Below are positions 3,292-10,008 of a stretch of DNA of 10,028 nucleotides, one piece after another. Source of the DNA: Candidatus Margulisiibacteriota bacterium. Its GTDB lineage: Bacteria; Margulisbacteria; WOR-1; O2-12-FULL-45-9. Position 1 is the first letter of the stretch; every line of letters starts with the position of its first letter. The position numbers were made by a program, and so were the translations under genes. The stretch spans positions 1 through 10,028 of the forward strand of contig JAHIZU010000118.1 in the NCBI GenBank assembly GCA_018814265.1, read 5' to 3'. The notes under the pieces were generated by a model. That model was given only the letters and a program-made list of their open reading frames with translations. It had not been told where the DNA came from and did not search any database.

Positions 3292-3392
3292 CCTCACCCC
3301 CACTGACGTTTATGACGCCTCCCCCTCTCCATCGAAGATGGAGAGGGGGAAACCCGAATCCCGATGAAATCGGGATGAGGGAGGGGGTGAGG
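3292..3392. repeat. Nested palindromic element filling the cinA-thpR gap
   Basis: Outer arms CCTCACCCCC (3292-3301) and GGGGGTGAGG (3383-3392) are perfect 10-base complements. They enclose one hairpin with 13-base perfect arms (3321-3333 and 3337-3349, loop GAA) and a second with 8-base perfect arms ATCCCGAT and ATCGGGAT (3358-3365 and 3369-3376, loop GAA). The RNA could fold as a three-way junction. The element begins at the base after the cinA stop and ends 5 bases before the thpR start. There is no U-tract after any stem, so it is not a typical intrinsic terminator. Confidence 0.85.
3388..3392 (+). promoter_or_regulatory. thpR ribosome binding site embedded in the palindrome's right arm
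   Basis: TGAGG at 3388-3392 lies 5 bases before the thpR ATG (3398) and is the only Shine-Dalgarno candidate. It is also the last half of the outer palindrome arm, which pairs perfectly with 3292-3301 just after the cinA stop. A folded transcript would hide it. Ribosomes finishing cinA would pass through the left arm and could open it. Confidence 0.55.
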
Positions 3393-6523: not shown

Positions 6524-7326
6524 TGCAGAAATCAAAGTTGCTAAAGATCTTATTTGTTGGCGACATTATAGGCAAACTGGGCAGACAGGTTTGCCGACTG
6601 GTCCTCCCGGACCTTAAGGCTGAACTCGAGCCGGATCTAATTATTGCCAATGGTGAAAACTCCGCCCACGGCTACGGCATTACCGAGATAGTCTACAAAG
6701 AGCTGCTAGCAATGGGCATTGAAGCTATTACTATGGGCAACCATGTCTGGGACAAAAAGGACCTGGCTAAAAATATCAATAAGATGCCGCTTGTTGTCCG
6801 CCCGGCAAACTATCCGCCGGGAGTGCCGGGTCAAGATCATCTCATAATTGAAAAGTCCGGAGTTAAGATCGGCATCATCAACGTATCAGGCAGAACATTT
6901 ATGCCAGCCTTAGACTGCCCCTTTCGCGCCGCAGAAAGAGTCACCTCTAGCCTCAAAACCAACTTAATCCTGGTAGACATGCATGCAGAAGCAACGTCTG
7001 AAAAATGTGCTCTGGCCTGGTTTCTTAACGGCAAAGTTTCAGCCGTCCTGGGAACCCACACTCATGTCATGACCGCAGACGAAAGGATCTTACCCCAGGG
7101 AACTGCTTTTATTTCAGATATTGGCATGGTTGGGGCTTTTGAGTCCATCATTGGCATGGGCAAAGAGCAGATCCTAAAAAGATTTTTAACTCAGATGCCG
7201 GAAAGATTCGAGCCAATGGACCATGGCCCTGGCTTATTTAACGCGGTATTATTGAAGATTGACGCGATCAGCGGCCAGGCCAAAGAAATAAAACGGATCT
7301 ACAAAGTGGTGGAATCAACTGCCTAG
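6523..7326 (+). CDS. ymdB: YmdB-family metallophosphoesterase (2',3'-cyclic-nucleotide 2'-phosphodiesterase)
   Basis: YmdB proteins are calcineurin-like dinuclear metal phosphodiesterases. In Bacillus subtilis YmdB affects biofilm and sporulation decisions and is encoded beside rny. The 267-residue protein keeps the expected ligands: D14 in FVGDIIGKLGR, E45 and N46 in NGENSAHG, N73 and H74 in MGNHVWDKKDL, H154 in VDMHAEATSEK, and H179 and H181 in LGTHTHVMTADERI. Length is normal. The ATG shares one base with the rny stop. No near Shine-Dalgarno is visible, so it is probably translationally coupled to rny. It is the last gene of the forward operon and overlaps the convergent valS gene by 12 bases. 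No terminator separates the two. Confidence 0.95.
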   Translation: MQKSKLLKILFVGDIIGKLGRQVCRLVLPDLKAELEPDLIIANGENSAHGYGITEIVYKELLAMGIEAITMGNHVWDKKDLAKNINKMPLVVRPANYPPGVPGQDHLIIEKSGVKIGIINVSGRTFMPALDCPFRAAERVTSSLKTNLILVDMHAEATSEKCALAWFLNGKVSAVLGTHTHVMTADERILPQGTAFISDIGMVGAFESIIGMGKEQILKRFLTQMPERFEPMDHGPGLFNAVLLKIDAISGQAKEIKRIYKVVESTA

Positions 7327-10008
7327 GTCGTTGATCCGCGCGGCCAGAAGCTGCTTCTTTTCTTCCAGCTCTTTGAGCTGAACTTTTTGCTTGGCCACTG
7401 CTTCCGGAGGCGCTTTTGCTACAAAACTTTCGTTAGACAACAATTTTTTTAACCGCTCCAGGCCCTGAGAGACATTTTGTTCTTCTTTTTTGAGTCGTTC
7501 AACCTCTTTGCCAATATCGATCAAGCCTTTTAGCGGAACAAAAAATTGGATGTCAGAGACAACCCCGGTCGCTGATTGCTCCGGCTTCTTCTTCAGCGAG
7601 GCAACAATCTCGATCTTTGTGGTCTTGGCCAAGGATCTAATATAGGCTTCGCCTTTAGCAATAGTTTCTTGCTCGTTTTTCTTTGGCGCCACGATCATCA
7701 GCTCAATATCTTTTGTTTGCACGCCCATCTCCGCCTTGATATTTCTAACCTTGGCGATCAATTCCTTCAAAAGCCCCATCTCAGCCTCAACCTTTGGATC
7801 AATAAGATTTTTATCAACCTTAGGCCACTCTTGAAGCATGATCGTCTTCATTCGTTTATTCGTTTTGGATTCGTTGATAGCAATTCGTTGCCAGATCTCC
7901 TCCGAGATAAAAGGCATAATGGGGTGAAGCAGTCTCAGCGTCCCTTCTAATACATACAAAAGGACCTTAAGCGCCTTTTCTTTACGCTTAGCGTCTTCTG
8001 AATACAGGTCAATCTTGGATATTTCTACATACCAGTCGCAGTATTCGCCCCAGAGAAAGTCATAGATCTTGCGCGCAGCTTCCCCCAGGTCATAACTCTC
8101 GTTCAACGCTGTAACTTCTTTGATCAGGTTTTGATAACGGCTGATAATCCATTTATCAACCAATTCGAGCGATGTAGCGGCGACCTTTAGGTCGCCATTT
8201 AATGAAGGGCCAAAGCCCTCCGCTACATCCAAACTCATTAATATAAATCTTGTCACATTCCAGATCTTATTAGTAAAATTTCTCGCTTCGGTCATCTTGT
8301 CCTGAGTCAGTTTTATATCCTGGCCCTGGCCAGTGATCAGGGAGATCAAAGCAAAGCGCAAAGCATCCGCGCCAATCTTATCAATGATCTCCAGCGGATC
8401 GATCACGTTGCCAAAGGATTTGCTCATTTTCTTGCCTGAGGCATCGCGGACCAAACCGTGAATAAAAACAGTGTGAAAAGGCTCTTTTTTCATGAAATGC
8501 ACGCCCATCATGATCATTCGCGAGACCCAGAAAGTGATAATGTCGTAACCCGTGACCAGTACATCAGTAGGATAAAAGGTTTTTAGATCTTTTGTTTGCT
8601 CCGGCCAGCCCAGCGTTGAAAAAGGCCACAAACATGAAGAGAACCAGGTATCAAATACATCAGGGTCCTGCTCCCAGCCATCACCTTTAGGCGGCTCTTC
8701 CCCCACATAGGTTTCTTCGCCGCGATACCAGACCGGCACGCGATGGCCCCACCACAATTGGCGCGAAATACACCAATCCTTGAGATTAACCATCCAGTTG
8801 ATGTAAACCTTGGTCCAGCGGTCAGGCACATACTTAATTTCTCCCTCTTCCACCGCCTTGATCGCTTCGCGGGCCAGGTCTTTGATCTTAACGTACCACT
8901 GATCAGACAAATAAGGCTCAATAACACTCTTGCAGCGGTAGCATTCGCCGACCGCGTTCTCATAATCCTCGATCTTATCCAAAAATCCCTTTTCTTCTAG
9001 CATCTGGACTAAGCGTTCGCGGGCTTTATAGCGATCGAGCCCTTCTAATCCCTTAATTTCCTTTTTTTCTTCCTCTGCAAATTCATTAAATGTCAGTGTT
9101 GCTTTCGTGGTTAATATATTTATCCGCGGCAATCCGTGCCTATCCCCCATTTCAAAGTCATTAGGATCATGGGCTGGAGTAACTTTAACCGCGCCAGTGC
9201 CAAATTCAGGATCAACAAATTCATCTTTAATTATCGGGATCCTTCGATTGACCAGAGGAAGGATCAGCATCTTGCCGATCAGTTTCTTATAACGTTTGTC
9301 TTTGGGATTAACTGCAACCGCAGTGTCACCCAACATCGTCTCCGGCCGGGTCGTGGCGACAATGACTCCCGGACCCTGGCTACCGGCTACTGGATACTTG
9401 ATATACCAGAGTTTCCCTTTTTTAGTTTCATGCTCAACTTCGATGTCAGAAATAGCAGTCCCGCACTTGGGGCACCAGTTGACCAGCCGCTTGCCGCGAT
9501 AGACCAGGCCTTCATTATATAAGGTGACAAATTCGTGCGTGACAGCCTTGGATAATCCCTCATCCATGGTAAAACGCTCTCTAGTCCAGTCTAGCGCAGA
9601 ACCCAGGCGTCTCAATTGCCTGGTAATATTGCTGCCGTATTCTTCCTTCCAAGCCCAGACGCGTTTGATGAATTCTTCGCGGCCCAGGTCTTCCTTGGTC
9701 TTACCCTCTTTTTTTAAGGCCTTAGCAACCACATTTTGAGTCGCTATACCAGCATGATCAGTCCCGGGCAGCCAAAGGGTATTAAAGCCCTGCATTTTTT
9801 TATACCGGATCAGCACATCCTGGATAGAATTATCCAAAGCATGGCCCATGTGAAGATTCCCGGTCACATTCGGCGGCGGGATTACGATAGTAAATGGCTT
9901 TTTGCTAGAATTATCTTCAGGAGAGAAAAGGTTGTTCTCCTCCCAGAATTTATACCATTTCTGCTCAATTTCCTTCGGATCATAGATTTTTGGGATTTCT
10001 TGGTTCAT
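7315..10008 (-). CDS. valS: Valine--tRNA ligase
   Basis: This class I synthetase charges tRNA-Val and edits mischarged threonine. All 897 residues are present. The HIGH motif is HMGH (53-56) after PPPNVTGNL. A cysteine pair is C179/C182 (CPKCG) and a second is C356/C359 (CYRC), probably zinc-binding. The CP1 editing domain shows VATTRPETMLGDTAV and FGTGAVKVTPAHDP. The KMSKS loop is intact at 527-531. An anticodon-binding helical domain follows, and the end is the ValRS-type coiled coil (about residues 825-897). Residues 594-613 (DVAEGFG...KVAATS) are encoded by a nested palindrome in a variable linker after NKIWNVTRFILMSL. The ATG at 10008 has no evident Shine-Dalgarno. TATGAT at 10027-10022 could be a -10 element giving a very short leader, but its -35 would be outside the window. 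Confidence 0.97.
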   Translation of the reverse strand: MNQEIPKIYDPKEIEQKWYKFWEENNLFSPEDNSSKKPFTIVIPPPNVTGNLHMGHALDNSIQDVLIRYKKMQGFNTLWLPGTDHAGIATQNVVAKALKKEGKTKEDLGREEFIKRVWAWKEEYGSNITRQLRRLGSALDWTRERFTMDEGLSKAVTHEFVTLYNEGLVYRGKRLVNWCPKCGTAISDIEVEHETKKGKLWYIKYPVAGSQGPGVIVATTRPETMLGDTAVAVNPKDKRYKKLIGKMLILPLVNRRIPIIKDEFVDPEFGTGAVKVTPAHDPNDFEMGDRHGLPRINILTTKATLTFNEFAEEEKKEIKGLEGLDRYKARERLVQMLEEKGFLDKIEDYENAVGECYRCKSVIEPYLSDQWYVKIKDLAREAIKAVEEGEIKYVPDRWTKVYINWMVNLKDWCISRQLWWGHRVPVWYRGEETYVGEEPPKGDGWEQDPDVFDTWFSSCLWPFSTLGWPEQTKDLKTFYPTDVLVTGYDIITFWVSRMIMMGVHFMKKEPFHTVFIHGLVRDASGKKMSKSFGNVIDPLEIIDKIGADALRFALISLITGQGQDIKLTQDKMTEARNFTNKIWNVTRFILMSLDVAEGFGPSLNGDLKVAATSLELVDKWIISRYQNLIKEVTALNESYDLGEAARKIYDFLWGEYCDWYVEISKIDLYSEDAKRKEKALKVLLYVLEGTLRLLHPIMPFISEEIWQRIAINESKTNKRMKTIMLQEWPKVDKNLIDPKVEAEMGLLKELIAKVRNIKAEMGVQTKDIELMIVAPKKNEQETIAKGEAYIRSLAKTTKIEIVASLKKKPEQSATGVVSDIQFFVPLKGLIDIGKEVERLKKEEQNVSQGLERLKKLLSNESFVAKAPPEAVAKQKVQLKELEEKKQLLAARINDLGS
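8171..8229. repeat. In-frame nested palindrome inside valS
   Basis: Outer arms GATGTAGCGG (8171-8180) and CCGCTACATC (8220-8229) are perfect 10-base complements. They enclose GGCGACCT/AGGTCGCC (8179-8186 and 8189-8196, loop TT; its first two bases are shared with the outer arm) and AGGGC/GCCCT (8206-8210 and 8215-8219, loop CAAA). With one flanking base the unit equals 20 codons and keeps the valS frame. It resembles the intergenic element at 3292-3392 in plan: a 10-base outer stem around two hairpins. The design recalls Rickettsia palindromic elements, which also insert in frame into protein genes, but no sequence relation is claimed. Confidence 0.8.

Follow-up and report, generated by a model that had tools for sequence, protein, structure and literature searches.

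The DNA analysed here (the window) is a stretch of 10,028 nucleotides, positions 1 to 10,028 of contig JAHIZU010000118.1 (assembly GCA_018814265.1) of a Candidatus Margulisiibacteriota bacterium. Its minus strand carries valS at 7315-10008, an intact open reading frame (ORF) for a valine--tRNA ligase (ValRS) of 897 residues that scores over the cut-offs of the NCBIfam profiles NF004349 and TIGR00422 and can be aligned with T. thermophilus ValRS (1gax) from residue 4 to 890. Inside this gene, at 8171-8229, lies a palindromic element of 59 bases that is translated in frame as residues 594-613. The element is a head-to-head dimer of two units of the GTAG type of repetitive extragenic palindromic (REP) sequences, with a REPIN-like layout. 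This assignment is based on the sequence, the fold, a second copy in the same genome, further copies in relatives, and covarying stems. An earlier inspection of the letters alone (the sequence-only reading) had described a 10-base outer stem around two hairpins, translated as 20 residues of ValRS, and likened it to the palindromic elements of Rickettsia. The description of the stems and of the translation agrees with what is reported below, the likeness only in part.

The element at 8171-8229 and its host protein

Direct reading resolves the 59 bases into GATGTAGC-GGCGACC-TTTA-GGTCGCC-ATTTAAT-GAAGGGC-CAAA-GCCCTCC-GCTACATC, i.e. two hairpins enclosed by an outer inverted repeat. The outer arms (8171-8180, plus strand, and 8220-8229, minus strand) form a perfect 10-bp inverted repeat and lie inside the inverted repeat I1 (29-nt arms, 72% complementary), with which the element tops the inverted-repeat list of the window. 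REP unit 1 (8174-8197, plus strand) consists of the tag GTAG, a C, the stem GGCGACC, the loop TTTA, the returning stem GGTCGCC, and a final A, giving a CA dinucleotide after the stem; it agrees with the consensus of the copies and with the 166 units described below. The spacer TTTAA (8198-8202) separates it from unit 2 (8203-8226, minus strand), which is inverted and reads GTAG, C, stem GGAGGGC, loop TTTG, stem GCCCTTC, and A, with one A.C mismatch in this second hairpin. Both units therefore display GTAG, one further base, a stem of 7 bp (with the mismatch in unit 2), and a 4-nt loop, and fall within the definition of GTAG-type REPs used here: a GTAG tag at the foot of a stem-loop with a stem of 5-13 bp and a loop of 2-20 nt. 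As in REPINs, the two inverted REPs combine into one larger hairpin. Since the inner GG/CC of the outer stem is also used by the hairpins, the result is a three-helix fold with a shorter outer stem.

As RNA, the element folds with -31.2 kcal/mol, compared with a mean of -13.2 in 200 dinucleotide shuffles (z -6.6, no shuffle as good), and it is the strongest-folding 90-nt window of the valS gene. The expectation that such symmetry exceeds chance is thereby borne out, and a chance hairpin is ruled out by this z value and by the dispersed copies. An Rfam search of the window gave no match.

The position of the segment in the protein was inspected on an AlphaFold2 model computed from 55 ValRS sequences (mean predicted local distance difference test score, pLDDT, 81). 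The segment sits between helices 569-591 and 616-637; residues 592-602 are without regular structure and 603-613 are modelled as a helix of low confidence, the block means being 63 and 54. The insertion site is the connection of these two ValRS helices and lies near the start of the anticodon-binding region. T. thermophilus ValRS is 11 residues shorter at this segment and has no comparable peptide. The placement in a tolerant linker, as the sequence-only reading had it, fits this low-confidence stretch between two well-predicted helices.

Dispersed copies and the frame in which they are read

A search for a second copy in the same genome (G000, 1.48 Mb), set beforehand as a check, found one on contig C112 with 79% identity over the BLAST match. 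It is located in frame in a TatD-associated radical SAM gene, for whose product no matching solved structure was found. A pattern search with the outer arms recovered this copy, plus copies in three further genomes (G011, G013, and G030); a match in G036 (L035) lacks the inner hairpins and was rejected as chance. The copies follow a common plan of GTAG, one base, a 7-bp stem of variable sequence, a TTTA-type loop, and A; after a spacer the unit recurs in inverted orientation.

A covariance model of the GTAGC dimer (R1) was built from 18 aligned copies, of which 11 had been retrieved with a pattern in which GTAGCGG and CTTTAG were fixed, and 7 with the outer-arm search or from the window; the inner stem positions were free. 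It finds matches in 6/74 Margulisiibacteriota genomes. Under the three-helix structure, 98.6% of the pair cells of the 18 copies are paired vs 85.3% in shuffled data, and 57 pair cells are changed on both sides vs 19.9 in shuffles, i.e. the stems vary by complementary changes as is characteristic of GTAG-type REPs. The inner two hairpins contain no pair with a change on one side only, which points to a constraint on DNA rather than on RNA. Beyond the phylum, a scan of the GTDB genome collection located at least 117 stretches, across many phyla, that contain the full element, and some metagenome-assembled genomes hold several copies each among the matches listed. The listed loci, three of them from Margulisiibacteriota, supplied 166 units. 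In 137 of the 166, complementarity is complete at the four stem positions left unspecified, and the base following the stem is A in 154, i.e. CA follows the stem.

Within the phylum, 23 separate places score 28 bits or more in the R1 listing: 12 in genes, one at a gene's N-terminus, nine in no convincing gene, and one (G009, C12) unclassified. All 12 in-gene copies are read in one frame, as V-A-A-T-F-R-S-P...G-G-L-K-T-A-A-T or a variant. Their hosts are valS (G000 and G007), the TatD-associated radical SAM gene, HemW, YgiQ (G011 and G013), GH42 (G013 and G009), QueA, the C-terminus of a ComEB-like deaminase, Lnt, and BioF. The names were given by protein-family tests, except that the G011 YgiQ and the G009 GH42 were assigned by eye because they resemble the G013 proteins so tested; the ComEB-like deaminase scores below its own NCBIfam cut-off. 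Solved homologues of QueA and BioF are 11 and 8 residues shorter at the element segment and are devoid of a like peptide. The N-terminal copy is found in an ORF resembling an M23 peptidase by eye, and its translation is doubtful (it may be untranslated). Weaker half units occur inside mutS and, by eye, inside proA of G011. At corresponding places of ygiQ, GTAGC dimers were seen by eye in G011 (L239 near 1284) and G013 (L251 near 2922).

The consensus unit, read directly, has stops in two of three frames, so that passage through a gene is possible in one frame only. The distance from GTAG to CTAC, measured for 16 of the 23 places with the 7 others left out, is 2 mod 3 in 11/11 in-gene copies and in the single N-terminal copy, compared with 0/4 intergenic ones. 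In-frame location in protein-coding genes, a defining feature of the Rickettsia palindromic elements (RPEs), is a property of this element family as well.

The ValRS linker in relatives

The element peptide is present in 1/29 relatives examined (G007). Of 120 aligned ValRS homologues, which served for the analysis of classes and identities, 105 linkers were extracted for the analysis of lengths (15 left out), and among these 105 the peptide is confined to two, the window's own protein (P0001) and P0073. The prediction that relatives would be found without the 20 residues is in keeping with both counts. At the same valS linker, the DNA of relatives contains other large palindromes. The linker is the strongest-folding 90-nt window of the gene in 12/49 valS genes, where 1.3 would be expected with every window given the same chance (P 4.5e-9 if the genes are taken as independent, the related genomes being partly dependent); in L207, counted among the 12, the linker is a tandem repeat. 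A second peak of strongest folding lies at valS residues 401-427 (9/50 genes). In some relatives (L017, L028, L189, L190, L024, and L193), two other loops of valS, close to residues 211 and 430, also contain in-frame palindromes or heptamer tandem repeats (AATGACA, ATCCGAA).

Four linker families were verified as dispersed DNA repeats. Family A is the GTAGC dimer, with the R1 matches in phylum genomes; family B (CTCACCCCC...GGGGGTGAG) has BLAST matches in 21/74 genomes; families C (CCCCCTCTGTC...) and D (AACCGCGACGTTCAGTCGCAGGTT) are likewise dispersed, the latter filling the valS linkers of G013 and G017. Linker classes E to H are known only from peptides or from a palindrome; for linkers L011, L018, and L020 no match outside valS came up within the 1.4 Mb of sequence searched. 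The eight classes are hand-written peptide signatures composed after the linkers had been viewed; with this limit, 39/120 ValRS homologues have a peptide matching one of them. Closely related enzymes differ in their filling. ValRS proteins P0086 and P0103 are 91.7% identical outside the linker and fall into classes B and D, as do P0065 and P0077 (89.1%); P0088 and P0110 (89.5%) fall into C and E, E being known from peptides only. For P0003 and P0002 (95.2% identical), one linker is filled and the other is plain.

The 38 linkers with a recognised element measure 17-36 residues (median 27), compared with a median of 20 for the remaining 67 of 105. A plain insertion of 20 residues, as implied by the sequence-only reading, is not what these lengths display: linkers are longer but not by 20, so the arrival of an element goes with loss of the older linker, which it largely replaces. 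The valS linker loop thus appears, from the sequences compared, to have been colonised repeatedly by different palindromes. Its occupancy may reflect an insertion hot spot or mere tolerance. A bolder version is that the loop acts as a revolving door, with several unrelated palindromic mobile families landing in frame and replacing one another faster than the enzyme diverges. We regard it as tentative, with odds somewhat below even. If true, mobile palindromes would continually furnish proteins with linker sequence, and selection acting on the DNA would preserve the palindrome within coding regions.

The distribution of the GTAG dimer itself raises the question of whether valS received it once or repeatedly. 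It could have entered a common ancestor of G000, G007, and the source of P0073, a third ValRS with the same subfamily peptide, and have been kept by selection on the palindrome or the peptide. The G000 and G007 elements are identical at 50/59 bases (ungapped), the flanking valS DNA only at 230/300 upstream and 176/300 downstream, and between the two elements a G-C pair is swapped for C-G by direct reading, which preserves the stem. Both also have the spacer stretch ATTTAATG in common; it recurs in the BioF copy of G011, however, and so marks a mobile subfamily. In the valS tree G007 is not sister to the window but grouped with G004 and G002, whose linkers are without the GTAG element, although several forks of this tree are open. 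The downstream junctions of the two elements differ, and third positions at shared codons are only about 51% identical, so that 85% identity of the element would need strong constraint. A single ancient insertion is therefore improbable, roughly a one-in-eight prospect, and repeated insertion into valS from one mobile subfamily is favoured by these sequence comparisons.

Two other features of the window were noted. A nested palindrome at 3292-3392, between a cinA-like gene and a gene for RNA 2',3'-cyclic phosphodiesterase, consists of outer arms CCTCACCCCC/GGGGGTGAGG and two inner hairpins. By eye, its outer arms are those of the CTCACCCCC family, and it resembles the repeat in the valS linkers of G010, G015, G021, and G002; it is absent from the BLAST matches of family B. 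A gene for a four-helix-bundle protein at 622-1023 (TIGR02436) is preceded by AGTAGTAC-type runs (575-612) and followed by TACTACT-type runs (977-1012), an inverted pair of short repeats.

Mobilisation, rival explanations, and known systems

The candidate mobilising enzyme is a REP-associated tyrosine transposase (RAYT). Two Y1 transposase genes are included in the listed cross-phylum loci, and both directly adjoin GTAGC units. In Zixibacteria CP070839.1 (L162) the gene exceeds the NCBIfam cut-off for REP_Tyr_transpos, with one dimer just upstream and another at its 3' end that supplies the TAG stop. At L099, also Zixibacteria, a Y1 gene runs off the locus end, leaving one side visible, and its 5' end is adjoined by GTAG units. 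An association of GTAG-type REPs with RAYT genes (REPtron) is thus seen at L162 and, one-sided, at L099. The window's own genome encodes a RAYT on contig C151 (L282, 1443-1996; 126.7 bits, cut-off 80), bordered in REPtron-like manner by inverted GTAGA...CTTTAG hairpins of the GTAG/TTTA type. RAYT-like genes of G027, G012, G015, and G030 (L279, L280, L281, and L285) have inverted GTAGGG hairpins at both ends and represent a sister GTAG-REP type within the phylum. A tally of any tetramer preceding a hairpin near 40 Y1 loci counted GTAG 11 times at 7 loci, tied with TGTA (a frame-shifted neighbour) and below AAAA (13 at 8 loci); this tally being weak alone, the individual flanking pairs carry the RAYT argument.

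Mobilisation of the valS element by a RAYT is what we infer from these neighbourhoods, and another mobiliser, e.g. an IS200-type Y1 transposase, is an unlikely though not negligible competitor. The second Y1 protein of G000 (C211) fits the IS200 model better and adjoins repeats of a different family, the AACCGCGACGTTCAGTCGCAGGTT repeats of family D that also occupy the valS linkers of G013 and G017; on this account the RAYT link would be incidental. Against it, GTAGC dimers lie directly beside RAYT-type genes in the two Zixibacteria loci, and the genome's own RAYT carries hairpins with GTAG and TTTA. The AACCGCGACGTTCAGTCGCAGGTT repeat and its variants also occur beside or in Y1 genes at L053, L057, L061, L046, and L055, and farther off at L059; L053, L057, and L061 fit the IS200 model. 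As these loci were chosen for their Y1 genes, the association is not an unbiased count.

The explanation we prefer, with a probability of about 0.8, is that a small non-autonomous mobile GTAG-type REP dimer of REPIN layout landed in frame in the helix connection of ValRS, and that the linker was then repeatedly overwritten. The RAYT, an HUH enzyme, would recognise single-stranded GTAG plus hairpin, cut beside the hairpin where CA follows the stem, and move the dimer. Only copies with the one open frame and a phase-keeping length could survive in genes; selection would leave them in flexible linkers, and new arrivals would overwrite the linker again and again. The notion of an in-gene mobile palindrome in a tolerant linker is supported by the second in-frame copy, the rarity of the peptide among relatives, and the low-confidence segment between well-predicted helices. 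A structure that belongs to valS itself and functions as RNA or DNA, such as a regulatory hairpin or an mRNA stability element, would also account for the strong fold and for paired changes that preserve stems. It is very improbable, as the same element is met in unrelated genes, intergenic sites, and other phyla, while the valS genes of most relatives are without it and some have unrelated repeats instead; the missing Rfam match and the hairpins free of one-sided pair changes, with their hint at a DNA constraint, tell against it too.

Several observations weigh against the mobile dimer and its mobilisation by a RAYT. No clean empty site or target duplication was found, the linkers of the nearest relatives being unalignable, and the net gain in valS length amounts to some 7-9 residues instead of 20. 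Of five covariation measures, two fail to exceed the shuffles: the number of pairs with a both-side change is reached by 45/500 shuffles, that of further pair types by 495/500. The invariance of GTAGCGG and CTTTAG across phyla is a consequence of the search pattern. With only two dimers, G000 is far under classic REP families, which usually number 20 to thousands of units per genome, and its raw GTAG...CTTTAG count is 6 vs 7 for a reversed-pattern control. The hairpin stems flanking its RAYT differ from the valS stems, so this RAYT is only a candidate for mobilising the G000 elements. G013 has three full in-gene copies yet gave no Y1 transposase match, and a scan for GTAG-N-GG hairpins at 30 Y1 loci of the phylum returned one unit (L053), located in mutS and not at the transposase; no exact-family REPtron was found at the Y1 loci searched within the phylum.

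REP-type DNA is normally termed extragenic. Under the preferred explanation, an uncultured phylum has had a loop of one of its essential enzymes rewritten by such DNA, and an element spread across phyla is linked to a named transposase family. A role of mobile palindromes in shaping protein linkers becomes testable, as does the maintenance of their palindromes by the transposase. Repeat-derived peptides in predicted proteins (e.g. VAATFRSPxxGGLKTAAT) would then owe their origin to dispersed DNA and not to a shared function.

In-gene REPs are already known. The sections covered of Di Nocera (2013; PMC3733652) treat GTAG REPs and their head-to-head dimers, the association with RAYTs, and REPs located inside genes, tRNA synthetase genes among them; they also record that recB of two Xanthomonas species carries different REPs at roughly corresponding sites. 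The valS element resembles the REPs of those sections in its GTAG beside a short stem-loop, head-to-head dimer, complementary stem changes, intragenic copies encoding about 20-30 residues, TAG stops supplied by the tag, and RAYT association. It differs in very low copy number, in the share of places in genes (12/23 in the phylum), and in its uncultured candidate phyla. The same sections describe no linker colonised by many families. The literature searched (mostly without subscription papers) yielded no account of several families replacing one another time and again at a single linker of an essential enzyme; nor did it yield a report of palindromic elements in Margulisbacteria or candidate phyla, or of palindrome insertion in synthetases.

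The likeness to Rickettsia drawn by the sequence-only reading holds for behaviour, i.e. in-frame palindromic insertions in conserved, unrelated genes, and fails for the family. According to the sections covered, RPE-4 and RPE-6 belong with a separate CGTC class (PMC3733652), and RPEs measure 105-146 bp (PMC2229807). The valS element carries GTAG, spans 59 bp, and resides in Margulisiibacteriota, outside the Rickettsiales; tag and size rule out its identity as an RPE, the least credible of the explanations considered. Closer parallels are offered by Marinomonas, whose REPMb, in the portion of PMC8266576 covered, has GTAG two bases from a perfect 5 bp stem and a TTTA loop with mutation-intolerant positions, and whose TnpAREP cleaves at CA or CT. 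The valS units share GTAG, the TTTA-type loop, and CA after the stem, while their 7-bp stem begins one base from GTAG; the match to the substrate of this enzyme, judged from sequence, is suggestive only. In overall architecture, the element corresponds to REPINs and bacterial interspersed mosaic elements (BIMEs), with two inverted REPs forming one hairpin.

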